A DNA stretch of 35,871 nucleotides from Candidatus Paceibacterota bacterium (GCA_040905715.1 JBBDRA010000006.1:1-35871); one strand, 5' to 3'. Counted from the stretch's first letter, positions 6,951 through 35,871 are shown. The notes: generated by a model not told the origin, from the letters alone. A program made the numbers and translations.

Positions 6951-6976
6951 GCCAAGCATTACCCCTCTCACCTGCC

Positions 6977-7196
6977 TGAGCCAAGAGCGGGAATCGCCGT
7001 CAGGTCACTAAGCTCCACTGCTCTCCGCCTACCGGCGGATGCGCCGTTCACTAAGTGCCTCCTGGCCGGGCTCGCCTGTCGTACTCGCTCCGCTCCGTGC
7101 GACGTGGCTCCACCTTTCTCATCCCGACAAAAGCGAAGCAGTTCGCTTTCTCTCTTTGCTACTCCGCTTCGCTTCGTGAGCCAAGAGCGGGAATCG
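6977..7196 (-). mobile_element. tRNA 3'-end-linked repeat, copy B (tRNA-Thr GGU)
   Basis: Bases 7177-7196 (3' end of tRNA-Thr GGU) and 6977-6996 are identical over 20 bp, a step of 200 bp. The interior has the family core GGATGAGAAAGGTGGAGCCA. The stem that reads GTCTC/GAGAC in copies A and C is here GTCG/CGAC with a different, longer loop. It ends 26 bases before the 5' end of tRNA-Thr(CGU). No protein gene is seen inside. Confidence 0.7.
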
Positions 7197-8147: not shown

Positions 8148-8801
8148 CTATATTTTTTCCGCATCTTCCACCCTAAACTCTCCGATCCGTGTTCTCCGCA
8201 ACTTCGTCGTCGTTGCCGGCACATCAAGCCCTCGTCCGATCGCCTCTACTACCGAGCGCACGAATACACCGCTTGCAACATCCATTGTCAGATCAAGAAA
8301 AGTGCTTCCCTCGTTTTTAAACACCGTGTTCAATTTCAGACTATACACTTTCATGGCTCGGACCGGAGGGTCCACCTTTTCACCTCGGCGCGCCTTCTTA
8401 TACAACGGCTCACCGCCCACCTTGACCGCTGAATAGATCGGCACCGGTAGGTCTGTTACGCCTGTTAGCTGATCACATACTTTTTGAATATCCTCCGCAC
8501 TAAACGACTCCACAACGTCGATCTTTTCAACCACCTCTCCTTCCTGGTCTCCGGTATCAGTACGAACACCGAGCTCAGCCACTACCTGGTATGTTTTATC
8601 AAGCTTAAGAAAATTCTCAAGCTGCTTGGTCCCTTCGCTACCCACACCGACGATCAAAAGCCCGCTCGCCATCGGATCAAGCGTGCCGGCGTGCCCCATT
8701 TTGCGTATCCCTACCTTTTTGCGAAGTCGCCGGATCACGTCAAAGGAAGTGATTCCAATAGGTTTATCAATAAGATAGATCGATTCAGGTATATCTGACA
8801 T
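8148..8801 (-). CDS. truB: tRNA pseudouridine-55 synthase
   Basis: 217 residues, short because the C-terminal PUA-type extension is absent. It converts U55 in the T-loop of tRNAs to pseudouridine. The catalytic aspartate is D42 in HAGTLDPMASGLL. LIDKPIGITSFDV near the N-terminus and the GVFVRSVVEAIG region are standard for the family. An SD-like GGAG lies 11 bases before the ATG, inside a leader with several competing helices. It sits among tRNA genes but has its own leader after the histidine kinase. Confidence 0.95.
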   Translation of the reverse strand: MSDIPESIYLIDKPIGITSFDVIRRLRKKVGIRKMGHAGTLDPMASGLLIVGVGSEGTKQLENFLKLDKTYQVVAELGVRTDTGDQEGEVVEKIDVVESFSAEDIQKVCDQLTGVTDLPVPIYSAVKVGGEPLYKKARRGEKVDPPVRAMKVYSLKLNTVFKNEGSTFLDLTMDVASGVFVRSVVEAIGRGLDVPATTTKLRRTRIGEFRVEDAEKI

Positions 8802-8810
8802 AGTTTTGTT

Positions 8811-8900
8811 ATCTCCACTTTCCTGAGTAATAACGTATACGCCAAAAAGTGGTTGGCGGAGGGTCTGGGCTTTGCGGCGTATACGTTATTGCGACCCTCC
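8811..8900 (-). promoter_or_regulatory. Structured truB leader with competing helices
   Basis: A perfect 15-bp inverted repeat (8829-8843 with 8876-8890, AATAACGTATACGCC arms) overlaps a second 8-bp inverted repeat (8858-8865 with 8893-8900, GGAGGGTC arms) in pseudoknot order. A third pairing (8846-8852 with the AAAGTGG at 8814-8820) would cover the truB Shine-Dalgarno. The long helix cannot easily coexist with the 8-bp helix, so alternative folds are likely. This matches no riboswitch class I know. Confidence 0.5.
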
Positions 8901-8901
8901 T

Positions 8902-9900
8902 CTATTCTTGTGGAAGCGTAATAGTGAACGTGGTTCCTTCTGTCTCAACAGAACTTAGCTCTATGTGCCCGCCGTGCAAGCCGATTACCTGTTGCGCCAA
9001 ATAAAGCCCGATTCCGCTTTGATGCCGATCGATCGCCCGTGCATTCTTCCCTCGATAGTGACGTTCAAAAATGTGTTTCTGTTCGATCGTCGAGATACCA
9101 ATACCGTTATCGGCGATGATTATCTTCACCCCGTCTTCAGCGGTCTTAGCCATAACAGTTACCTGACCATGAGGTGTGTAGCGGATCGCATTATCAATAA
9201 TATTCGTAAGCGCACTCGTTAGCACATGTTTCTCCCCGGCAATAATAATAGAGGATGAAGAACACTTGCAATCAACCTTGGTATTCTTTTCTTGCGCCAG
9301 ATAATCAAGATCGTCAACGATCTCTTTGAGTAACTGTGCTATATCGATCTGATCCTTCTTTTGAGAAAGCTCGAATGAGCTCAGATCAGATTGGTGCATC
9401 TTAAGGAGCTTTTCTATCAAATCGTTAGCGTCGTTTATTTTTTCAGTACTCTTCTCAATTAAGTCATGTTCTTCTTCATTGAGGCGCTGACTTGACTTGA
9501 TTATTCCTAGCGCCCAACGAATTCCGGACAACGGAGTTTTTAGTCGGTGCTGAGCCATGTGAATGAACATCTCTCTCACCTCTTCAAGCTCAGAGAGGTC
9601 ACGTACTTCACGCTTGCTTTGCTGAAGATCATACACGATCTTAATGCTCTTATACATCAGACCTGCTGACGCCAACGCTATAATAACCCCTTCAAGAATA
9701 AGCGCGATGTAAAGACCTTGTAAGGTCACGTATACATCAATATATTCTCCGAAATATGGAACATCAAAATCACCCCAGGTCGCTGCCAAAAAAGCAGTGG
9801 TCATGTTTGCCACCACTCCTATAAAAAGAATGATCACTTCTACCCGAACACGAGTTGTGTGCTGCCAACTTTGTTGCTGACCAGAATCAGAAAGAGCCAT
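8902..9900 (-). CDS. Membrane sensor histidine kinase
   Basis: 332 residues. Two transmembrane helices (about 20-42 and 58-82) are separated by a short external loop of about 15 residues, so there is little room for a ligand domain. The HisKA dimerisation helix has the phosphoacceptor H118 in HMAQHRLKTPL. The ATPase domain shows the N box NIIDNAIRYTP, G1 box IADNGIGIS, F box IFERHYRG and G2 box SGIGLYLAQQ. No response regulator is adjacent. The only receiver in the window is the one between pilB and pilT, and pairing with it is speculation. Confidence 0.93.
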   Translation of the reverse strand: MALSDSGQQQSWQHTTRVRVEVIILFIGVVANMTTAFLAATWGDFDVPYFGEYIDVYVTLQGLYIALILEGVIIALASAGLMYKSIKIVYDLQQSKREVRDLSELEEVREMFIHMAQHRLKTPLSGIRWALGIIKSSQRLNEEEHDLIEKSTEKINDANDLIEKLLKMHQSDLSSFELSQKKDQIDIAQLLKEIVDDLDYLAQEKNTKVDCKCSSSSIIIAGEKHVLTSALTNIIDNAIRYTPHGQVTVMAKTAEDGVKIIIADNGIGISTIEQKHIFERHYRGKNARAIDRHQSGIGLYLAQQVIGLHGGHIELSSVETEGTTFTITLPQE

Positions 9901-10002
9901 GTACTCATAATGATATCACAATACAACAGCAAGAAATTCACATCTGCCGCGCTATCCACCACTTAGTTAGTACACCTCCTTGACCGGTTGTTTGAGCAAA
10001 AA

Positions 10003-10031
10003 CAAAATACCAGCCAAGGGCTGGTATTTTG
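10003..10031 (-). terminator. Distal terminator of tRNA-Asp unit
   Basis: A 13-bp perfect stem (CAAAATACCAGCC with GGCTGGTATTTTG) has a three-base loop and is followed on the minus strand by TTTTG. It lies just beyond the distal tRNA-Asp 3'-end copy. It may be the original tRNA terminator, pushed away when repeat C inserted. Confidence 0.8.
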
Positions 10032-10037
10032 TCATTT

Positions 10038-10269
10038 TGCGCGGCCGACCGGACTCGAGGGTCAAGTTTCTAAGCTCCTCGCCATTTTTTAAAACGGCTC
10101 GATCACTAAGAACTTCCTCCCCGAGCTCACCTGTCTCTCCAGGTATTCGAGACATGGTTCCGCTTGTTCAAGTCGGACGCAAGCAAAGCAGTTTGCTTGC
10201 TTCGCCCGCTTGTATTTAAAAAGACTAGCCTTAGCTAGTCTTTTTAAATACTGCGCGGTCGACCGGACT
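10038..10269 (-). mobile_element. tRNA 3'-end-linked repeat, copy C (tRNA-Asp)
   Basis: Bases 10252-10269 at the 3' end of tRNA-Asp recur at 10038-10055 with one mismatch in 18, a step of 214 bp. The interior shares with copy A the string CATGTCTCGAAT, then CCTGGAGAGAC. With both copies it shares a GC-A-ACTGCTT-GCTT hairpin and a CTTAGTGA tail (A: CTTAGCGA). Unlike A and B it also has a 40-bp terminator hairpin directly behind the tRNA. An open frame at 9967-10155 crosses the core, but it is interrupted by stops in copy A, so I do not call it a gene. Confidence 0.7.
10212..10251 (-). terminator. tRNA-Asp proximal terminator
   Basis: An 18-bp perfect stem (GTATTTAAAAAGACTAGC and its complement) with a four-base loop sits two bases behind the tRNA-Asp discriminator. 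It ends in TTTTTAAATAC on the minus strand. Confidence 0.8.
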
Positions 10270-10327
10270 TGAACCGGCAACCTCCACCGTGACAGGGTGG
10301 CGATCTAACCAGTTGATCTACGACCGC
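10254..10327 (-). tRNA. tRNA-Asp (GUC)
   Basis: The acceptor GCGGTCG pairs with CGACCGC. The anticodon stem CCACC/GGTGG encloses CTGTCAC, giving anticodon GTC. The discriminator is G as expected for Asp, and no CCA is encoded. Its first ten bases (GCGGTCGTAG) also supply the last codons and the TAG stop of the upstream homing endonuclease gene. Confidence 0.95.
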
Positions 10328-10983
10328 ATCTTCAACTTTTGACAAAATTTTATCTTTTTACCCCTGAGACATAGCGACTGACTATTACTATACATCAGGT
10401 TGTGTAACATCTTACTGCTTTTCGTAGAGTATTGCAATCGAAAAGCTGAAGCATTGTTAACCTTAACCAGACTACCAATTAACCCTTTCTCTTGCAATTT
10501 TTCTTTCAATGATTCTAAAAAACCATACGAACAGGAAGTAAATCCAGCCTGAACTACATAAAGGGATGTCTTGCGTTCTTTATGCATTAAGCCCGACCAC
10601 ACATGCCCATCCCCATCAAAATACCCTCTTAAAAAATCATTAAAATAATTTTTCGGAATGCGTGGAAGCTCTAATCTGAATGTCTTCTGAGTCCCGGTTC
10701 CATAACGCATTAGATCTTGGCACATTTTCTTACTACCAATCTGAACACGGTAAGCAATAGCCTTATTAATTTTATGTATGCGTTTTGTAAGCTTATGATT
10801 AGATCCCATACTACTTTGAATCTGTTCTAGTAATTTTTTATCTTTTGATTCTAGTACAAAGTAATGTCCACCACGAGGATTGATAGTTAGCGTCCCATCT
10901 GCCCAAAAAAAGCCGAGCACATACGCCATGTCAGGTGACCATGTCTTAAAGAAATTATGATCAAGTGTTCTGTAAACGGGCAT
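10318..10983 (-). CDS. LAGLIDADG homing endonuclease
   Basis: 221 residues from the chosen ATG. Two motif helices, MAYVLGFFWADG and FLRGYFDGDG, show a monomeric two-motif enzyme with both catalytic aspartates. The frame is open up to 11028, but that extension reads a degraded tRNA-Asp fragment. The ATG at 10983 has a -10 box (TATACT, 10990-10995) six bases upstream. The stop codon is the TAG inside tRNA-Asp. Its likely target is the tRNA-Asp sequence, judged only from this arrangement. The gene is AT-rich compared with its neighbours. Confidence 0.88.
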   Translation of the reverse strand: MPVYRTLDHNFFKTWSPDMAYVLGFFWADGTLTINPRGGHYFVLESKDKKLLEQIQSSMGSNHKLTKRIHKINKAIAYRVQIGSKKMCQDLMRYGTGTQKTFRLELPRIPKNYFNDFLRGYFDGDGHVWSGLMHKERKTSLYVVQAGFTSCSYGFLESLKEKLQEKGLIGSLVKVNNASAFRLQYSTKSSKMLHNLMYSNSQSLCLRGKKIKFCQKLKMRS

Positions 10984-22654: not shown

Positions 22655-23719
22655 TTAGAGCAGTCGCTCAAGCGCCTTCGGGTCAGTTGTGAAGTTATAC
22701 GCATCCTCGATAGCCACTTCACCCGAATTAACAAGTTCGGCAAGTGAGCGGTTCATGTCTATCATGCCTTCCGCACCACCGGTCTCGATAACCGTATTGA
22801 TCTCGTGAGTTCGACCCTCTCGAATCAAGTTAGCCACCGCACTATTGGCGATCAACAACTCATACGCCGGCACCAACCCGCCGGACACCGTTGGCAGAAG
22901 TCGCTGAGAGAAGATACCCGCAAGCGATCCGGCAAGCTGCAATCGTATCTGCCCTTGCTGGTCAGATGGAAAACTGTCGATGATACGATCAATGGTTTGC
23001 GAGGCGTTGTTCGTGTGGAGCGTTGAAAGCACGAGGTGCCCGGTCTCAGCGGCGGTCACGGCCGTCGCCATAGTCTCTCGATCTCTCATCTCCCCGACCA
23101 TGATCACATCGGCGTCCTGACGAAAAACATGTTTCAATGCGGTTGAAAACGATCGCGCGTCCTCTCCGATCTGACGCTGATCGATAATGGACTTAGCCGG
23201 CGTGTGCACGTACTCGATCGGATCCTCGATCGTTATAATATGTTCGAGACGATTTTGATTGATCATCTCGATGAGACTGGCCAGCGTCGTACTCTTTCCG
23301 TGGCCGGTCGGACCTACTACGATAAAGAACCCCTGCTTCTTTTCTGCGAACTTTTTAAGCGTTGGCGGCAGACCAAGCTCCTCAAGCGTGCGTATATCCT
23401 GAGGGATAAGTCGAAGCGCTATACCAAGTTGCCCTTGCTGGAAGAAGGCATTGCCACGAAATCGAGCTTTCTCAGTATGACCATAAGCAAAGTCAACAGA
23501 ACGATCTTTTATAAGTCGCTCCTTCTGGTCACTCGAGAGCATCTGGTCAGCCAATCCTCGAATGTCCGCGGCACTTAGCTTTGGTCGGTCAAGAATACTC
23601 AAGTAACTCGCGACACGAACAACAGGCGCACGTCCTTCAGAAAAGTGGATGTCTGACCCGTCTTCCTTGAGAACGATATTCACCAGATCATCAAGTTCTT
23701 TTTCGTAGTTCATAGCCAT
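22655..23719 (-). CDS. pilT: Pilus retraction ATPase
   Basis: 354 residues. Walker A is VVGPTGHGKSTTLASL, the Asp box IITIEDPIEYVH, Walker B DVIMVGEMRDRETM and the His box AETGHLVLSTLHTNNA. The retraction-specific C-terminal motif AVANLIREGRTHEI (the AIRNLIRE type) is present, marking it as PilT rather than PilB. Its start lies one base behind the stop of the receiver gene, implying coupled expression. Confidence 0.95.
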   Translation of the reverse strand: MAMNYEKELDDLVNIVLKEDGSDIHFSEGRAPVVRVASYLSILDRPKLSAADIRGLADQMLSSDQKERLIKDRSVDFAYGHTEKARFRGNAFFQQGQLGIALRLIPQDIRTLEELGLPPTLKKFAEKKQGFFIVVGPTGHGKSTTLASLIEMINQNRLEHIITIEDPIEYVHTPAKSIIDQRQIGEDARSFSTALKHVFRQDADVIMVGEMRDRETMATAVTAAETGHLVLSTLHTNNASQTIDRIIDSFPSDQQGQIRLQLAGSLAGIFSQRLLPTVSGGLVPAYELLIANSAVANLIREGRTHEINTVIETGGAEGMIDMNRSLAELVNSGEVAIEDAYNFTTDPKALERLL

Positions 23720-23720
23720 A

Positions 23721-24119
23721 TTACGTACTGTGTTTAGCGGAGATCGCCATTACTTTTTCTACAACCTCAGACGGGATACTGGTAGCCTTCACAATGTAAC
23801 CCACCGCACCAAGCTTCTTTGCCGTGTCGATCTGTTCATCACCTCCCTGGTTGGTGAGCATGATCACGATCGAATTCGGTGCAAGCTTTTCATTTTTTAT
23901 AACTTCAAGAAGCTCGAGGCCGTCAATATTCGGCATAATGATATCGAGCACAATGATATCCGGCGAATACCCGTCACGCAGCTTACCGAGCGCCTGCTCT
24001 GAACTGGTTGTCGTTTCAACCGAGTGGCCGGCCTTTTCAAACTTCGTGGCATACATGTTGACGAGAAATTCATCGTCGTCAACGATAAGTAATGATTTTT
24101 GAGAAGAATCGTCGCTCAT
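23721..24119 (-). CDS. Single-domain response regulator (CheY-like)
   Basis: 132 residues, a receiver and nothing else. The acidic pocket is DDDE at 14-17, the phospho-acceptor D59 in IIVLDIIMP, the switch threonine T89 and the lysine K111. There is no output domain, so it must act by protein contact. Its position between pilB and pilT suggests control of the pilus motors, much as PilG/PilH-type receivers do. Its kinase is not adjacent. The window's only kinase lies 14 kb away. Confidence 0.93.
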   Translation of the reverse strand: MSDDSSQKSLLIVDDDEFLVNMYATKFEKAGHSVETTTSSEQALGKLRDGYSPDIIVLDIIMPNIDGLELLEVIKNEKLAPNSIVIMLTNQGGDEQIDTAKKLGAVGYIVKATSIPSEVVEKVMAISAKHST

Positions 24120-24216
24120 ACGTACAAAATAATTATGGTATTAGTATATCACTCTTTAGATGTAACACCTGTTGAGAAGTTTTATCTTCTCCTCCATCTC
24201 ATGGCCGGTCACTTAC

Positions 24217-25992
24217 TTACAAAGTATTTACTTCTTCGAACGGTATCTTACCTTCCATTGCCTTTATAATAGCATCCTCTTTCATGGTAAGCATGCCCTG
24301 CTTTCGCGCTATGTCGTAAATAGCATTCTCACTTGGATCATTAAGGATCACATCTTCTATTTCTTTGGTCATTTTATACATCTCCATAACCGCTGTTCGA
24401 CCCTTAACCCCGGTCGGGCAATCAGATGTCGCTGTTGCCTCATACACATTCCCGGTTGTCGGCAGAACATTGTGAAATTCCTCAGGCAGATCAGTAAACT
24501 GTTTCTCAAGCATTACTTCGATACTCCCTTCGATCGGTATCGGCTTGCCGGCACCGGAACACATTGTGGAGACCAGTCGCTGAGCCATACCAAGTATTAA
24601 CGTCGGCGCGATAAGATACGGGTCAATACCCATATCAACAAGGCGTGGAATAATACCGATCGCGTTGTTCGTGTGGATCGTTGAAAGTACGAGGTGCCCG
24701 GTAAGCGCCGCATGGATCGCGAGCTGCGCGGTTTCCTTATCACGGATCTCACCGACCATGATCACATCCGGATCTTGACGCAAAGCAGTTCTCAAACCGT
24801 TCGCGAACGTATAGTTAATGTCCGGCCGGATCTGAGACTGACTTACGCCGTCTACGTTGTACTCAACCGGATCTTCAAGTGATAGAACGTTCTTTTTCTC
24901 TCGATCGATCATATCAAGCATGGCGTAGAGCGTAGTCGTTTTACCCGAACCGGTCGGACCGGAAATAAGGATCATACCGAACGGCGCATTCATTGCATCC
25001 TTGATCATCTTCATATGCGGTTCGCGCAAATCGATCTCCTGCAGTTTTCGTATGCCACTATCTCGATCGAGGATACGCATCACCACCTTTTCACCGTAGT
25101 ACGCCGGAAATGTTGAAACACGAAAATCGATCTGACGTCCTTCTATCTTTGCAGAGAAACGGCCGTCCTGGGGCTTGCGCTTTTCATCCAAACGCATGTT
25201 TGAAAGTATCTTGATACGAGCCACCACCGCAGCGTGTACTTTTGTTGGCAACATTAAACTGGTATTGAGCACACCATCAACACGAAAACGTACGCGAATA
25301 TTGTCACGAGTGCGCTCAATATGGACATCAGACGCTCCACCGTCAGTCGCGTATCGTAAAATAGTAGCGACGATCTTTGTTACCGGAGCATCCTCAACAA
25401 TGGTTCCTTCGCCGGTAGAAACAGTGTCGCTCTTCTTGATCTCTCCTCCATCAGCCAGCTCCCCTGTTTGGTCGTGAGGCGCTTCGACCGATTGTTCATC
25501 TTCCTCACTCACTGAACCGGATATTTCTCCCTCAAAATCAGAAAGAGCGTCAGTTACCTCACCACTTAAACCACCGTACAACTCAATACCGTTGAGAAAG
25601 TCCTGATACGTGATCACCACAAACGTGTACTCGAGGCCATGTTTTGATGAGATAAAGTTCAGTGCATTGCGTGCCTCAATACTGTTTGGGTCAACAATAC
25701 CGATCGTAAGTGTATGATCTTGTAACGATAGTGGTATAACCCGGTAATATGAAGCCGATTCTTCAGGTATGTACTTCAGTATGTCGTGAGGTATCTCGTC
25801 GTCCTCATCAATAACAAACGAAGAAATACCGTAAAACTCTTCCTTGAGTTTACGGATCTGATCTACGCTCAGTCCATGCGCTTCCAACGCACCGTCAAGA
25901 GACCCTTCAGCTGATTTCGCTTGTTGGCGAATAGCTTGAAGCGCGGACTCGTCAAAATCTTGCTGTTGTGCGACAAAGTCTAGGAATTCCAT
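24217..25992 (-). CDS. pilB: Pilus extension ATPase
   Basis: 591 residues from the ATG at 25992 (the frame is open to 26034). The N-terminal MshEN/GspE-N domain is at about 1-150, then an acidic linker. The ATPase has Walker A LISGPTGSGKTTTLYAML, Asp box LSLEDPVEYN, Walker B DVIMVGEIRDKETA and His box LTGHLVLSTIHTNNA. The zinc-binding four-cysteine motif of PilB/GspE, which lies after the His box, keeps only two cysteines (STMCSG and SDCPTG). It starts about 125 bases after the PilP-like gene. Confidence 0.95.
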   Translation of the reverse strand: MEFLDFVAQQQDFDESALQAIRQQAKSAEGSLDGALEAHGLSVDQIRKLKEEFYGISSFVIDEDDEIPHDILKYIPEESASYYRVIPLSLQDHTLTIGIVDPNSIEARNALNFISSKHGLEYTFVVITYQDFLNGIELYGGLSGEVTDALSDFEGEISGSVSEEDEQSVEAPHDQTGELADGGEIKKSDTVSTGEGTIVEDAPVTKIVATILRYATDGGASDVHIERTRDNIRVRFRVDGVLNTSLMLPTKVHAAVVARIKILSNMRLDEKRKPQDGRFSAKIEGRQIDFRVSTFPAYYGEKVVMRILDRDSGIRKLQEIDLREPHMKMIKDAMNAPFGMILISGPTGSGKTTTLYAMLDMIDREKKNVLSLEDPVEYNVDGVSQSQIRPDINYTFANGLRTALRQDPDVIMVGEIRDKETAQLAIHAALTGHLVLSTIHTNNAIGIIPRLVDMGIDPYLIAPTLILGMAQRLVSTMCSGAGKPIPIEGSIEVMLEKQFTDLPEEFHNVLPTTGNVYEATATSDCPTGVKGRTAVMEMYKMTKEIEDVILNDPSENAIYDIARKQGMLTMKEDAIIKAMEGKIPFEEVNTL

Positions 25993-29849: not shown

Positions 29850-29886
29850 TTTCTTTCAGCCTGGTTTTTCATGCGGAGAGGGAGGC

Positions 29887-30011
29887 TTACCTGCCGGTAG
29901 GGAGGGATTCGAATCTTACAGATTCTGTGCAGCGTTTGGATATTTTCTGCACCTTTGGCTTGAAAATATCTCAAACCGCTTTTCGAATCCCCGGAAGCTT
30001 CACTTCCTACT
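29887..30011. repeat. Nested inverted repeat containing a tRNA 3'-end-like fragment
   Basis: Arms pair inward: GGTAGGGAG with CTTCCTAC (29896-29904, 30003-30010), GGGATTCGAA with TTCGAATCCC (about 29902, 29982) and GCGTTTGGATATTTTC with a near-complement (29932-29980). On the minus strand GATTCGAATCCCTCCCTACC reads like the T-loop and acceptor 3' end of a tRNA, but no matching tRNA body is present. It may be a leftover attachment-type fragment like those at 6671, 6977 and 10038. Confidence 0.45.
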
Positions 30012-30060: not shown

Positions 30061-30327
30061 GCGGTGTGTATTGGACAAAGTTCGAATGTATTTCGGGCAA
30101 AATCCGCAGGATTTTGATTAACTTCGCACGCGCGGAGCGCGTAGTGGCTTTGACCCAAATCGTACGCTCCGATTGCGTGGTGATGCCAAAATGCGCCTCG
30201 CACGCTCCCTTCGGTCGCGATCCCAAAACCAAAAATTTACTTACTTTTCCTTCTTCGGCGGGGGGTGTGGGGGGAGCCGGCAAAAAATGGAAAGGAAAAT
30301 TTTTGGTTTTGGTTCCGACGCTTCGTC
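30061..30327 (+). repeat. 267-bp inverted repeat, left copy
   Basis: This segment is repeated in reverse orientation at 34730-34996. I compared the two base by base and see no difference. The first bases are GCGGTGTGTATTGGACAAAG. Inside are smaller palindromes, including a 16-base arm CCAAAACCAAAAATTT and its complement. Reading frames cross it in several phases, but none resembles a protein family. Probably a noncoding repeat that marks the ends of the island. Confidence 0.92.
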
Positions 30328-30564
30328 CTCCAAAAAGCTCCGTTTCAATCTCCATTATATTTGAGAGCTTTCCACTTCGTTTTTTTCCGTCCTTGCGTCG
30401 GGCGAGGCACGCCCCGTCTCCGCATTCTGTGGTAGCTTGAGAGTCCGCTCACACTTCGCAATCACCTCGCATAGGCCGCTCACATTCGTTCGTGATGCCC
30501 GCTCGGTGTTTGCTTCGTGTTCGCTTGGCGATTTCGTTCGAGTCTGCAATAACTCCCAATACAT
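30328..30564. other. Gene-free stretch between left repeat and HNH gene
   Basis: GC-rich sequence with a short GGGCG-AGGCA-CGCCC hairpin. A minus-strand frame (30355-30564, starting MYWELL) has no recognisable relatives and I do not call it. Confidence 0.4.
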
Positions 30565-31251
30565 TTACCAGAGAATTTCACACCAAATGTATTCACTAAA
30601 AACCATCCTTACTCCTTCAGAAAAAACCAAGTAACGATATCTATTTTCTTGTACTTCAACCCAGGGCACTCCAATGACTCCTTCAGTGGTTAATATATTT
30701 TCCATTGCACGACTTCCGACTTCAGGAGCTAGATGAGCCAGTGGAATCATTTCAAAATTCAACCTAGATTCTTCTGATAAAAGTTCTAATGTGCCGAAAT
30801 CAAAGTGACTAATATTTTCATCTCTCTTTGGTTCATTGTGTTCAAAAAGGGCATGGCCTTGCGCAATTTTTAATAAAACTTTCCTAAAGCGTTCTGGTTC
30901 AATTGAAAAAGCTGTTTGTCCCTTTGGTGTTTTTGCTACAGCTTTTTCTAACTTACTCATTAGAGCCTTCTTTCTTGATAAGATGAGGCGGATTTTATCT
31001 CGCTCAATCACTTCCAAATCTACGCTTCCTAACCGAGCACACTCAATCAAACAGGCAAAATACTCTTCGTCCAAGGAATACCCGTGATTACAAACTTCAC
31101 ATGCTCGTATAACTGGTAAATTTTCTGGATATGGCTCATCGAGCAAAACTTTTGGAGGAATATGCTCTTTTGTTTCAATTCCCTTACCACAATATACGCA
31201 ATGCGCTGTTTGTCTTTTGTCTCCAAAATTTATCCGCTGTTTCATAGTCAT
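30565..31251 (-). CDS. HNH-type nuclease-like protein
   Basis: 228 residues. Near the N-terminus CVYCGK and CEVCN form a zinc-binding pair around EHIPPK (residues about 18-55). This is an HNH-like beta-beta-alpha arrangement with H in EHIPP and N in CNHGYS. The remaining 170 residues are helical and not recognised. Such proteins appear in accessory and defence regions. Nuclease activity is inferred from the motif. It is the last gene of the leftward series inside the inverted repeats. Confidence 0.6.
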   Translation of the reverse strand: MTMKQRINFGDKRQTAHCVYCGKGIETKEHIPPKVLLDEPYPENLPVIRACEVCNHGYSLDEEYFACLIECARLGSVDLEVIERDKIRLILSRKKALMSKLEKAVAKTPKGQTAFSIEPERFRKVLLKIAQGHALFEHNEPKRDENISHFDFGTLELLSEESRLNFEMIPLAHLAPEVGSRAMENILTTEGVIGVPWVEVQENRYRYLVFSEGVRMVFSEYIWCEILW

Positions 31252-31326
31252 TTATCACTCGATGGCTTCGTTTATGAACACGAGAATATACAAAGAAATG
31301 GGAAAAGAATGTAAAATATAAACGAA

Positions 31327-31346
31327 GACGAGGCGTTAGCCTCGTC
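31327..31346 (-). terminator. Terminator after the small island gene
   Basis: A GACGAGGC-loop-GCCTCGTC hairpin is followed on the minus strand by TTCGTTTATATTTT, ten bases behind the stop of the small gene. Confidence 0.7.
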
Positions 31347-31356
31347 CCGCTTCTCC

Positions 31357-31569
31357 CTAACTTCCCGTAATAAGGTCGTTCAGAGATTTGACGTTATGCT
31401 TCTCAAGATAAGTACCGAGTTGCATATCAGACCTGACACCAAGGTCAATACCGTATTGTTTCTCGATGGTGCCAATATGGGTGTCGTCACGCTTATCGCG
31501 TAGCAATCCATTTTGGTTTCGAGAACGGCAACCTTTCATGCCAGGTGCGTCATTCTTACATTTAGCCAT
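31357..31569 (-). CDS. Small protein of unknown function
   Basis: 70 residues, basic N-terminus with three cysteines early (AKCKNDAPGMKGCRSRNQNG), then RDKRDDTHIGTIEKQYGIDLGVRSDMQLGTYLEKHNVKSL. The second half resembles small Patescibacteria proteins I have a general memory of but cannot name. The compact sequence and own terminator favour a real gene. It could be a small nucleic-acid-binding protein, which is not shown. Confidence 0.55.
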   Translation of the reverse strand: MAKCKNDAPGMKGCRSRNQNGLLRDKRDDTHIGTIEKQYGIDLGVRSDMQLGTYLEKHNVKSLNDLITGS

Positions 31570-31750
31570 AGGCTTTTTCGGATTAAGTTAATAATGCCGA
31601 GAAAAGGTTCGACCACCTCCTTCCTCGCGTTTGACGCGATACGAAGATAGTCATTTGGCAATCTGCAAGAACTGGACGGGCTTAACGCCTCGTTTTCACT
31701 AGTATTCTAAATTATTTTGTATTCTTTTACAACCCGATCTCGCAGATTTA

Positions 31751-32398
31751 TTACGAATCCATAACTTTGAATTCTTTATCAGAGATTATTATGTGATCAA
31801 TCAGGGTGATGCCAAGTAAATCTCCAGCGTCAGCCACTCTCTTCGTGATTGCAATATCTTCGTCTGAAGGATTAAGGTTTCCTGATGGGTGATTATGCGC
31901 TAGAACAAACCCTGCCGCGGATAATTGCAAGGCGGGTTCAAAGACGTCTCTTGGATGTAGTAGTGAAGTATCAAGTGTGCCAACTGAAATGATACGTCTT
32001 TCAATTAAGTGCTGTTGCGTATCAAGATAAAATGCAACCATGTGCTCTTTTTTCAACGAACGAAAATCTGCGCATAAATTCCATATATCCTTCGCTGATA
32101 ACACCTCGACGCTGCGCTCATTTCCAAAACGATCCACTAGAGAAATGACTGCAAGTATTTGAACCGCTTTTGCTTTCCCGAGCCCACGAATTTTTAGTAA
32201 ATCTTCCAGGGTTACGTTATTTGCTGATTTTTGCGTTATAAGTTTTTCTATCTTTCGCGCAAGCTCAAGTACGTTACAACCTTTGATTCCTGAACCAAGA
32301 ACGATCGCTATCAATTCAAAATTCCTCAAACGTTTTGCGCCATACTTTTCCATTTTCTCTCGTGGAAGTTCTGTTTTCTTTAATTCAGTGAGCTTCAT
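31751..32398 (-). CDS. radC: RadC-family JAB domain protein
   Basis: About 215 residues from the ATG at 32398. An N-terminal helix-hairpin-helix (LEDLLKIRGLGKAKAVQILA) is followed by the JAB/MPN metalloprotease-like domain with VLAHNHPSGNLNPSDEDI, holding the metal ligands. The frame is open to 32479, but that would overlap the restriction gene by 74 bases. The chosen start lies eight bases behind its stop. Despite the name its role in repair is doubtful. It is common on mobile elements and near defence genes. Confidence 0.9.
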   Translation of the reverse strand: MKLTELKKTELPREKMEKYGAKRLRNFELIAIVLGSGIKGCNVLELARKIEKLITQKSANNVTLEDLLKIRGLGKAKAVQILAVISLVDRFGNERSVEVLSAKDIWNLCADFRSLKKEHMVAFYLDTQQHLIERRIISVGTLDTSLLHPRDVFEPALQLSAAGFVLAHNHPSGNLNPSDEDIAITKRVADAGDLLGITLIDHIIISDKEFKVMDS

Positions 32399-32405
32399 GT
32401 CGCAA

Positions 32406-33458
32406 TTAAGATTGTTTCGTGTTTGCTTCTTCATAACCAGATTCAAAAACCTGCGAAGGAAGCTGATTGCCAAGTCCACCGACCACGTCTTTGTCTATGA
32501 GTTCTTTCCACTGCCCGAGTTTATCTTCCTCTATAGATGAGACTCGCCAGTAAAATTTCAACAATTCTTCGTCTATATCATTGATTCGACTAGCGATTTT
32601 TGGTGCATAGTCATGAAGTTGAGAAAGCATTTGCGACACACTCTTCTTCTCTTTAGCGACTATAACTTCTTGTTGTCCCCCTGCGCTGAAAGCATCGCGC
32701 AAACTTGTGGATACTGCTCCGAATTCAGTAATCATGTACGTGGCCGCTCGCTCATAGTTAGCACGATTTTTGAAGAGTTCAGGGAGTAAAATCATGCAAT
32801 CAACTTTAAATCTTTCTTTGTCTTCTGGTTCTAGGGTTCGAAATTGTTTAATAATTGGAGAGGATGATTCTGATTCCTCGTCAATCCACCACAAGCCCTC
32901 GCCGTCTTTTAGCTGTTTTCTGTAATACGATTTTATTTGCGGTATAGTATCTCCGCTAGTTCGCAGCTCATCATAAGAAACTCCCATTTTGTCGAATATG
33001 GAATGTCCCGTTGGTAAATCCATATTGATTTTATATCTAGGAGAGTGAGTCACGCTGATTTCTGGTAAACATTCTTGATATAAACGATATCGTACGTCAG
33101 CTTGCCCTCCTAATTTTCCAAACATGATAAAAATTCGTTCCACGTCTTCAATGCGCGAAGATTCCATTACGCTGTTTCCTGTTGAAGTCCAATGATCCTT
33201 GACGGTTATCTTAACCTCAACACCAAAGTACCCGTTTGCGACAATATCAGGGAAGGCGTGAACCCCAGTTTGTTTTATAGTGCCCTCAAATTCAGTACCA
33301 GTAGAGGCATCGCACATCTTCTCGCAAACTAATCCTTCAAAATCCAAGGCGGTAATTTTGTTATCAGTTCTAATTTTGGTAACCAAAAGTTCTTTGGATT
33401 TTTCCAACAAGGTAATAAAATTTTCCTCCTTTGCATTTTTCTTTTCAGCGTAAATCAT
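32406..33458 (-). CDS. Type II restriction endonuclease, PD-(D/E)xK type
   Basis: 350 residues. FPDIVANGYFGVEVK gives the PD-(D/E)xK core: D71, then E81 and K83. An upstream E41 is a possible fourth member. ESSRIEDVERIFIMFGKLGG follows as a conserved-looking block. The family and cut site cannot be named from sequence. The one-base gap to the methyltransferase and the same orientation make the pairing nearly certain. Confidence 0.8.
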   Translation of the reverse strand: MIYAEKKNAKEENFITLLEKSKELLVTKIRTDNKITALDFEGLVCEKMCDASTGTEFEGTIKQTGVHAFPDIVANGYFGVEVKITVKDHWTSTGNSVMESSRIEDVERIFIMFGKLGGQADVRYRLYQECLPEISVTHSPRYKINMDLPTGHSIFDKMGVSYDELRTSGDTIPQIKSYYRKQLKDGEGLWWIDEESESSSPIIKQFRTLEPEDKERFKVDCMILLPELFKNRANYERAATYMITEFGAVSTSLRDAFSAGGQQEVIVAKEKKSVSQMLSQLHDYAPKIASRINDIDEELLKFYWRVSSIEEDKLGQWKELIDKDVVGGLGNQLPSQVFESGYEEANTKQS

Positions 33459-33459
33459 T

Positions 33460-34446
33460 TTATTTCAAATTTTTATCAAGAAATTTATCTATGGATTTAG
33501 CAATATGCCATGCAAAAACAGGTGGCACGGCGTTTCCGATCTGTTTATATGCTTGAGACGTGGACGGCAAGAATTCCATATCATCAGGGAATGATTGAAT
33601 TCTTGCGGCCTCTCGAGCGGATAGTCGGCGTTTTCCATTCCAATGATATTCAATGTTGCCATGATGTTCAGTTCGCATTGTTGGCCCCGGTTCGTCTGCG
33701 TCAATTATTCCGTTGCCCTGCCCCTTATTTTTCTTCGCTTTAGACCAATAGTGGTTTGAAAAGTCACCTTCTTTAACATTTTCCAGATCACCAAACGCCT
33801 CCTTTACTGACACGTGTATTCCTTTGTGGGTTGGTTTCGGATAGTCATCGTCCTCAAACCTAGGAAGCATATTTTTGCGAGTCCCAATGATAATTACACG
33901 CTCGCGCATTTGCGGTACGCCATAATCAGCGGCAAGAAGTAATTTATGATTTACGTGATATCCGAGTTTTGCAAAATCATCTTTGATGATATCAATGGCC
34001 GTACCATTATCTATTGTAAGAAGACCTTTCACATTTTCTGCTACAAATAACATTGGTTTTGTCCTGCGAATGACCTCAGCCATGCTGCGATACAGAAGTC
34101 CTTTCTCGCTATTGAAACCTCGGCGCTTTCCAGCGTGACTGAATTCTTGACACGGAAAACCACCAAGGACAATATCAACCTTTTTTGGTAGCGGTACATC
34201 AAACATCGCACCATGTTTGTCGTTCAAAATATCAACGATACTTCCACAAACAATGTCGTGATTAAAATAATTTTTGAAAGTTTTGCAGGCTGACTCATCA
34301 ATATCATTTGCCCAATTTATGACAAATGGTTGTTTTTGATATTTTTTCCCGTTTGATTCAAACCCGCCTAGAAAACCAAGGTCCAAGCCACCGCAGCCAG
34401 CAAAAAGTGAGGCAATTGTTAATTTGGTTTTAGTGTTTTTTGTCAT
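33460..34446 (-). CDS. DNA (cytosine-5) methyltransferase of the R-M system
   Basis: 328 residues. All core motifs are in order: I LFAGCGGLDLGF, IV GGFPCQEFSHAG with catalytic C99, VI AENVKGL, VIII QMRERVIIIG, IX RRLSAREAARIQSFP and X YKQIGNAVPP. The target-recognition region lies between VIII and IX (about 205-280). It protects the host site from the adjacent endonuclease. It starts four bases after the controller gene ends. Confidence 0.96.
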   Translation of the reverse strand: MTKNTKTKLTIASLFAGCGGLDLGFLGGFESNGKKYQKQPFVINWANDIDESACKTFKNYFNHDIVCGSIVDILNDKHGAMFDVPLPKKVDIVLGGFPCQEFSHAGKRRGFNSEKGLLYRSMAEVIRRTKPMLFVAENVKGLLTIDNGTAIDIIKDDFAKLGYHVNHKLLLAADYGVPQMRERVIIIGTRKNMLPRFEDDDYPKPTHKGIHVSVKEAFGDLENVKEGDFSNHYWSKAKKNKGQGNGIIDADEPGPTMRTEHHGNIEYHWNGKRRLSAREAARIQSFPDDMEFLPSTSQAYKQIGNAVPPVFAWHIAKSIDKFLDKNLK

Positions 34447-34450
34447 ATAA

Positions 34451-34657
34451 TTATTTCAAAAGCTCACTACTACTCACTCCCAACGCTTTCGCTATCTTTT
34501 CTATTGTAGCAAGCGTTGGGTTCGCTTTGCCAGCTTCAACATTGCTAATGTATGCTCGGTCTAGGCTCAACAATCGACAAATGTCGCCCTGCGACATTTT
34601 CTTTTGTTGACGTATGCGTTTGATACTTTTCCCGAGTTTAATTGACGGAGTATTCAT
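34451..34657 (-). CDS. XRE-family controller protein of the R-M system
   Basis: 68 residues from the ATG at 34657: KLGKSIKRIRQQKKMSQGDICRLLSLDRAYISNVEAGKANPTLATIEKIAKALGV, a complete HTH_3 domain and little else. The longer frame to 34792 reads through promoter and repeat and is rejected. Small XRE proteins at the head of an R-M operon are C proteins, which time expression of the endonuclease after the methylase. The promoter carries paired dyads that fit autoregulation. Confidence 0.9.
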   Translation of the reverse strand: MNTPSIKLGKSIKRIRQQKKMSQGDICRLLSLDRAYISNVEAGKANPTLATIEKIAKALGVSSSELLK

Positions 34658-34669
34658 ATCCACAATCTT

Positions 34670-34717
34670 ATTATAATGGTTATTGTAATATACAACAATC
34701 TTGTGATATATTACAAT
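34670..34717 (-). promoter_or_regulatory. R-M operon promoter with C-box-like operators
   Basis: TTGTTG (34693-34698) and TATAAT (34670-34675) are 17 bases apart. Inverted arms ATTGTAATATA (34682-34692) and TATATTACAAT (34707-34717) overlap the -35 box. Each half also contains a TTGT-ACAA dyad. That is the layout expected for a dimeric controller binding two sites. Confidence 0.65.
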
Positions 34718-34729
34718 TATGTGGATAAT

Positions 34730-34996
34730 GACGAAGCGTCGGAACCAAAACCAAAAATTTTCCTTTCCATTTTTTGCCGGCTCCCCCCACACCCCCCGCC
34801 GAAGAAGGAAAAGTAAGTAAATTTTTGGTTTTGGGATCGCGACCGAAGGGAGCGTGCGAGGCGCATTTTGGCATCACCACGCAATCGGAGCGTACGATTT
34901 GGGTCAAAGCCACTACGCGCTCCGCGCGTGCGAAGTTAATCAAAATCCTGCGGATTTTGCCCGAAATACATTCGAACTTTGTCCAATACACACCGC
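34730..34996 (-). repeat. 267-bp inverted repeat, right copy
   Basis: The reverse complement of 30061-30327 over its whole length by my reading. It lies between the R-M promoter and the recombinase gene, so the two copies enclose 4,402 bases. No target-site duplication is evident at the outer edges. Confidence 0.92.
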
Positions 34997-35131
34997 CAAA
35001 ATTGAAAATCAGAATTGGAAGCCGAAATGGGGTCGCGCCGTAGGCGCGACACAAACGCATTCCCGCCAAAAATTCCCGAATCCAAAAGGTTTTTCCACGC
35101 TCCGCGTGGCTCTCTCGTTTGCCAATACATT
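34997..35131. other. Spacer between right repeat and recombinase
   Basis: It holds two small hairpins, GTCGCGCC-GTA-GGCGCGAC (about 35032-35050) and CCACGC-TCC-GCGTGG (about 35097-35111), and no gene. It should contain the recombinase promoter, and could hold part of an attachment site. Confidence 0.4.
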
Positions 35132-35871
35132 ATGAATAATCAAACCAAAAAGTTTTTCATATATACTCGCAAGTCTACGGACGACAAAGACAGACAAGTC
35201 CGCAGTATTGCTGACCAGTTGAGTGAGTTAAAAGAGTTAGCGTTAAAAGAGCAACTGGAAGTAGTGGATGTCTTTGTCGAGAAGCAGACCGCCAAAATAC
35301 CAGGTCGCCCTGTGTTTAACGAAATGATAGAGCGAATGGAGAAAGGCGAAGCTACTGGTATTTTGGCGTGGCATCCTGATAGACTTGCGAGAAACTCGGT
35401 AGATGGAGGAAAAATCATCTACCTCGTTGATACTGGTGCAATTTCAGAAATGAAATTCCCAACTTTTTGGTTTGATCCGACACCGCAAGGCAAATTCATG
35501 CTCTCAATCGCTTTTTCGCAATCCAAGTATTATGTAGACAATTTGTCGGAAAATATAAAGCGAGGTCATCGCAACAAAGTGAAAGACGGAATATGGCCTC
35601 AAATGTCTCCGCTCGGATATGTGAACAAAAACAAGCGTATTGTGCCTGATGAAAATATTGCCCCGCTTATCAAAAAGACATTTGAGGCATATTCCACTGG
35701 AAACTTCACTTTGCGGGAACTCCGCGACAAATTTAACGAACTTGGATTGAAACGAAAAAGCGGAAAGGAACTTGCGGTGTCGAATTATCAAAAACTTCTC
35801 AAAAATCCTATCTATACGGGATTGATGAGGTATAACGGAGAGATTTTTGAGGGAAAGCACGAACCGATTAT
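35132..35871 (+). CDS. Large serine recombinase, N-terminal part (cut by window end)
   Basis: The first 246 residues are present. The resolvase domain starts FFIYTRKSTDDKDRQVRSIADQ, with the nucleophile S15 in YTRKS and the conserved arginines in HPDRLARNSVDGG. A Recombinase domain follows from about 160 (SPLGYVNKNKRIVPDENIAPLIKK, then YQKLLKNPIYTG). This is the architecture of serine integrases and transposases that insert, excise or invert DNA between short attachment sites. It points away from the R-M cassette, starting 136 bases outside the right inverted repeat. Confidence 0.93.
   Translation, partial: MNNQTKKFFIYTRKSTDDKDRQVRSIADQLSELKELALKEQLEVVDVFVEKQTAKIPGRPVFNEMIERMEKGEATGILAWHPDRLARNSVDGGKIIYLVDTGAISEMKFPTFWFDPTPQGKFMLSIAFSQSKYYVDNLSENIKRGHRNKVKDGIWPQMSPLGYVNKNKRIVPDENIAPLIKKTFEAYSTGNFTLRELRDKFNELGLKRKSGKELAVSNYQKLLKNPIYTGLMRYNGEIFEGKHEPI

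Follow-up and report, generated by a model that had tools for sequence, protein, structure and literature searches.

The window, by which we mean the whole 35,871-nt stretch of Candidatus Paceibacterota DNA that was analysed (GCA_040905715.1 JBBDRA010000006.1:1-35871), contains a single long inverted repeat pair. Based on a repeat search of the window we found that positions 30061-30327 and 34730-34996 form two arms of 267 nt that are 100% identical and lie 4402 nt apart, in agreement with the first-pass annotation, which had described two identical 267-bp inverted repeats facing each other across 4.4 kb. The length of the pair rules out a chance origin of this identity. A 4-nt core is found at the outer end of each repeat, GCGG at 30061-30064 and CCGC at 34993-34996. 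The same annotation had proposed a genome search for further copies; across all seven contigs (835 kb) the 267-bp unit was present in just these two copies, and a 45-nt sub-block of it recurred with 91% identity on contig C3, twice and as an inverted pair, with one copy in each arm of a second element described below. The repeat gave no Rfam match and a fold z-score of -1.22 when searched for a structured RNA, and promoters and terminators in the arms showed no excess over shuffled sequences. Elsewhere in the window, diverged direct repeats were seen as a 37-nt pair beside a tRNA-Thr gene (6960-6996 and 7160-7196) and as 41- and 71-nt pairs, 1658 apart, which resemble paralogous genes (23004-24809).

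All genes between the arms are on the minus strand and form a one-direction operon. The first gene encodes an HTH controller protein (34451..34657, with a likely start at 34657) and is followed by genes for a C5-cytosine DNA methyltransferase (33460..34446; PF00145, 1e-73), a type II restriction endonuclease (32406..33458; PADLOC REase_II, 2e-47) and a RadC-family protein (31751..32479). The remaining two are a called ORF of 70 aa to which no function is assigned (31357..31569) and a 228-aa ORF (30565..31251) that looks like an HNH protein by eye from its CxxC...CxxC motifs and has no Pfam or family match. Gene content and common direction are those given by the first-pass annotation, and the adjacent methyltransferase, endonuclease and controller are predicted to constitute a type II restriction-modification system.

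Recombinase, tRNA target and attachment sites

About 135 nt beyond the right arm begins a gene for a large serine recombinase (LSR), of which the N-terminal 246 aa are present on the plus strand (35132..35871) before the contig ends. Its resolvase and recombinase domains (PF00239 and PF07508) identify it as an LSR. The earlier remark that no transposase lies inside the cassette is therefore literally correct, but a recombinase gene is its immediate neighbor. Between the repeat and this gene lies a further arm, a (34993..35112, plus strand), which overlaps the right-hand repeat by exactly the core CCGC at 34993-34996. The start of another contig of the genome, C2, carries an LSR 3' end and a 120-nt inverted copy of 34993-35112 with 100% identity (L112:190-309), beyond which lies a tRNA-Ser(gct) gene, entered at its 3' end. 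Comparison with L270, a close relative, places a gap of about 450 bp in the assembly between the end of the window, which is contig C6, and the start of C2. From these matching ends we strongly infer that the end of C6 joins the start of C2.

Recognition of this arrangement on C2 was guided by a complete element on C3. There the target is a tRNA-Ala gene, the LSR gene reads away from the cargo and is flanked by a 116-nt inverted pair (100%), and a second pair of about 345 nt (97%) surrounds a small operon of mostly membrane-protein-like genes. Many relatives share the order ddl-tRNA-Ala at this target, and the majority of them lack this LSR at that place, which provides an unoccupied context and not a strict empty site. 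To the right of the C3 element, beyond attR, we observed two extra direct copies of the tRNA-Ala 3' end (L005:8416-8433 and 8563-8580), which may have been left behind when this tRNA was targeted before. A third element in the genome (L074, G000:C3:420000-439900, at about 428.9 kb) is located at a tRNA-Glu gene and has an LSR gene near 8866-10443 and two attPs, and it has no cargo, its two b ends nearly touching; L077 and L173 are cargo-less elements of the same kind.

The anatomy predicted for the joined contigs is well supported and reads, in order, chromosome, core, b, cargo, b', core, a, LSR, a', core and tRNA. The left repeat (30061..30327, plus strand), named b, is the end of the element at attR and comprises the core and the cargo-side half of attP, and its inverted copy b' (34730..34996, minus strand) is the cargo-side half of an intact internal attP. 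The 267-bp repeats are thus the cargo-side halves of a duplicated, inverted attP, and the 120-bp repeats, a and a', are its LSR-side halves. The core GCGG is shared between 30061-30064 and the tRNA-Ser gene on C2, and the internal b'-core-a has, intact, the same sequence as the attP to be expected from recombination of attL (a'-core-tRNA) with attR (chromosome-core-b), so that the element has more than the single attP represented by its attL/attR pair. We consider it about 90% probable that the locus is an LSR element in the 3' end of a tRNA-Ser gene, with two identical attPs in opposite orientation and the restriction-modification operon as cargo.

The mobile restriction-modification cassette that had been proposed is upheld in that the operon is the cargo of an integrative element. 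The boundaries and the mode of movement suggested for it are not, as the element is not confined between the repeats and extends past the right arm to a tRNA-Ser gene on another contig, and a two-repeat composite mobilised by some unknown enzyme does not describe it, given the adjoining LSR and the nature of the repeats as attachment-site halves. A composite transposon was rejected for the same reason, and also because the arms contain no transposase gene and are not IS copies. To the left of attR, at 29873-29917, there are fragments resembling the tRNA-Ser 3' end (GCGGAGAGGGAGG and GGGAGGGATTCGAA), which are perhaps the scar of an older insertion. A search by comF synteny in three family relatives, which are too distant, gave no strict empty site corresponding to the window locus; in one genome (G001) a tRNA-Ser(gct) gene comes after comF, but it is oppositely oriented and lies where the contig ends, so that the site is of no use for this comparison. 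No circular contig occurred among the fetched contigs shorter than 13 kb, and no excised circle was seen among them.

Distribution, cargo and orientation

With an LSR alignment we drew 80 named loci from a collection of genomes at species level. Almost all of these are in Patescibacteria, with Nomura-, Moran-, Yanofsky-, Falkow-, Kerfeld-, Woese-, Roizman- and Saccharibacteria and others among them. LSR loci were also present in MAGs named Syntrophaceae, Verrucomicrobiota and Kiritimatiellia (L134, L180 and L184), which may reflect either genuine transfer or the mis-binning of contigs from CPR. Relatives fetched by place were added to this set, and 112 LSR loci in all were scored. The a/a' pair was detected in 91 of these, with a tRNA 3' end abutting a' in 65 of the 91, and an abutting b/b' pair was detected in 32 of the 112. 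Where a/a' was present and the cargo side exceeded 5 kb, the standard test identified b/b' in 31 of 42 loci; the other 11 include loci with a weaker or very short-range b partner (L144, L173, L186, L074 and L077), one with the copy at the contig end (L271), and loci with N stretches. As a control, LSRs of other clades from the same order were inspected and none of 14 had such arms. The tRNA targets were Ala, Arg, Asn, Cys, Gln, Glu, Gly, Ile, Leu, Lys, Phe, Ser, Thr and Val, and in the junction table the core of the internal attP matched the tRNA at attL (for example TGGCGG for Ser, TGGCTG for Gln, TGGAG for Thr/Cys and TGGTG for Ala/Val). In the closest relatives of the window element all LSR-abutting tRNAs found were tRNA-Ser, with the anticodons gct, gga, tga and cga. 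Elements of this unusual build, which combine an LSR with highly diverse cargo, are thus common across the Patescibacteria (CPR), which are ultra-small bacteria.

LSRs of the window group were found at E<=1e-70 in 102 of 397 sampled genomes of the window's order, and their identity to the 246 aa of the window LSR reaches 96%, a value also seen in another family with other cargo. Between families of this order the housekeeping gene ddl is about 50% identical. Considering this contrast and the frequency of the LSR, it looks as if defence genes, among others, are being transferred at present by way of these elements. Near-identical LSRs accompany very different cargo in the individual elements, in which the genes were named by reading the sequence. 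The L270 element (genome G131) has a 96% identical LSR and arms with about 97% identity along the greater part of their sequence, and it carries a different restriction-modification operon with a controller, a fusion of RadC with a C5-methyltransferase and a second methyltransferase. L271 (genome G252), with an LSR of 95% identity, is located at another tRNA-Ser and has other cargo. As RadC is fused in L270 and is a separate gene of the same operon in the window, it seems to be linked to restriction-modification here.

The restriction-modification operon is one kind of cargo among many. Among 91 cargo proteins surveyed in 30 elements there were restriction-modification, GmrSD, reverse transcriptase and HNH proteins, as well as tRNA synthetases, GMP synthase, D-Ala ligase, radical SAM proteins and aminotransferases, and few kinds recurred. 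In one element (L071:7826-8926) a D-Ala-D-Ala-ligase-like protein is encoded by the sole cargo gene. The D-Ala-D-Ala-ligase-like, tRNA synthetase and GMP synthase cargo could be target-protecting copies.

We also determined the orientation of the two modules. In 29 complete elements the cargo reads away from the LSR in 20 and toward it in 9 (21:9 including the window). The LSR 3' end points toward the tRNA in nearly all elements, namely 65 with abutting arms versus about 5 with the opposite orientation. L069 and L280 are clear examples of flipped LSR isomers, with the tRNA directly at the 5' side of the LSR gene and an intact attP located at its 3' end; L138, L171 and L285 are similar, but cut or less clear. 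Based on the isomers and the cargo counts, both modules occur in both orientations when different elements are compared, and the LSR is strongly biased. This bias is unexpected from two equally used attPs without selection or a further mechanism. At a tRNA-Glu gene in L089 (G026:C17, 6790-9140) we observed a b-cargo-b' unit without an LSR, in which a 67-bp spacer bounded by inverted cores replaces the LSR gene, and a partial second LSR-less unit is found in tandem at the same tRNA. The unit looks like a non-autonomous derivative, and the tandem suggests that attL is reusable and that such units are movable in trans.

Relation to known elements

The recombinase is a typical LSR. The nearest solved structures to the full-length LSR of the C3 element are those of SPbeta YokA and A118, and the nearest named NCBIfam model is CcrB, to which it scored 123 bits against a cut-off of 900, below all Ccr cut-offs. 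ECC elements are cargo-bearing islands encoding an LSR, with attL and attR at a conserved 3' gene end, a circular form and highly variable content (PMC6222049). The window element resembles SCC/ECC (CcrAB, CcrC) in the LSR, the cargo-bearing island, attL and attR at a conserved 3' gene end and the variable cargo, but differs in targeting a tRNA, in having one recombinase gene and in having two inverted attPs. Membership in SCC/ECC was rejected, as the target is a tRNA 3' end instead of the rlmH 3' region and the recombinase does not belong to CcrA/B or CcrC. Genomic islands that target tRNA genes use the tRNA 3' end as attB, which is reconstituted (PMC12884075), whereas the window element has two attPs, one of which is intact inside after integration.

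Phage serine integrases such as SPbeta YokA and A118 share the domain order of the LSR, and one attP is used in their standard integration scheme (PMC4111918). The phage relatives are about 23-29% identical to the LSR and the listed plasmid and phage relatives together about 23-31%, for which reason a phage or plasmid origin of the LSR was rejected, and no phage or conjugation genes were seen in the element. Phage serine integrase systems normally encode a directionality factor; no gene for such a factor was recognised in the element. An analogy exists with the 2-micron plasmid, whose circle is split into two unique regions by a pair of long, identical inverted repeats that each contain a recombination site. 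The element shares long inverted repeats with recombination sites that divide the circle; the 2-micron plasmid, however, uses a tyrosine recombinase and is a replicating plasmid, and no replication gene was seen in the element. Searches of the open-access literature gave no report of an LSR element with dual inverted attPs, and no element of that description is known to us.

Possible roles of the second attachment site

Arms are more similar within an element than between elements. The median identity within elements was 0.989 for a and 0.983 for b, compared to 0.814 and 0.761 for the nearest arm of another element, and the within-element value was the higher one in 64 of 65 a-arm pairs and 29 of 29 b-arm pairs. 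The differences between arms are patchy and are rarest 20-40 bp from the core in the b arms and in the first 60 bp in the a arms. This pattern may be read as gene conversion together with selection that keeps both attPs usable, and gene conversion, which the first-pass annotation had already suggested for the repeats, is the best explanation of their identity. Regeneration of both arm pairs at each move was rejected, because the identities of a and b are weakly correlated (rho 0.37) and the mismatches patchy.

In the mechanism we propose, the LSR would insert the element at the tRNA-Ser 3' end by recombining attP with the tRNA. The circular form would be LSR-(a core b)-cargo-(b' core a'), with two identical attPs separating the LSR and cargo modules. 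Integration would consume one attP, giving attL as a'-core-tRNA and attR as chromosome-core-b, and would leave the other intact inside, so that a working attP and the upstream region of the LSR gene are preserved. As each module has the same half-site at both ends, either could invert or be exchanged, and recombination between the arms may homogenise them, invert modules and replace cargo. The second attP may then reflect history alone, may serve to preserve an attP and the LSR upstream region, or may allow LSR-driven self-inversion.

The first of these roles corresponds to arms that serve homologous recombination alone, which would make the element a passive, invertible or exchangeable defence cassette and the second attP a historical duplication without a role. 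The arms exceed the length of an att site, their patchy identity is like that of conversion tracts, and cargo is found in both orientations. The arms also stop exactly at the core on both sides, however, and their identity peaks around it, and the cargo-less elements L074, L077 and L173 retain two inverted attP halves, so that we regard this reading as possible and rather doubtful.

LSR-driven self-inversion concerns the second attP and is compatible with the anatomy. The internal attP would recombine with attL in cis and flip the LSR gene. Both the core and the tRNA half are retained in attL, and since any sequence can form the attB half on the other side from the tRNA, attL may still serve as attB. 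With its 5' end by the tRNA the LSR gene would be on, through read-through, and with its 5' end by b' it would be off, and a self-limiting on state would account for the orientation bias. The flipped isomers L069 and L280, and probably L138, L171 and L285, are consistent with such a switch, as are the tandem LSR-less units of L089, which appear as if attL had been reused. Flipped isomers are few, however, and homologous recombination between a and a' would yield the same ones, and we consider the switch unlikely on present counts.

Single-stranded DNA, for example from natural transformation, might fold back through the arms into a double-stranded attP for the LSR, and the geometry permits this, the arms being near-perfect complements. 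Serine recombinases cut both strands of both sites, however, and by this established mechanism a folded attP would be expected to leave the chromosome in two hairpin-ended pieces; the arms are also longer than needed, and the fold-back was rejected on mechanism as highly improbable. An assembly artefact or a chance duplication of an intergenic repeat, which the position of the element at a contig end of a draft genome might suggest, is refuted by the recurrence of the architecture, with different sequences, in dozens of independent genomes, and has next to no probability.

Returning to the element with two opposite attPs, its two modules could represent a new mode of serine-recombinase mobility, in which the LSR would act on the internal attP, either against attL or in the circle, to invert its own gene and shuffle cargo modules without a dedicated directionality factor; we advance this larger proposal as speculative. 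One would not expect a serine integrase to have a double inverted attP, and this feature makes the question of directionality directly testable. LSRs with exactly predicted tRNA target sites would be of interest to genome engineers. Contigs often end at these repeats, and the elements are therefore easily missed. The Patescibacteria are a very large, mostly uncultured bacterial branch with small genomes, in which gene gain is poorly known. If the proposed mode is true, the elements would exchange cassettes among the Patescibacteria and in this way disseminate genes for defence and metabolism.
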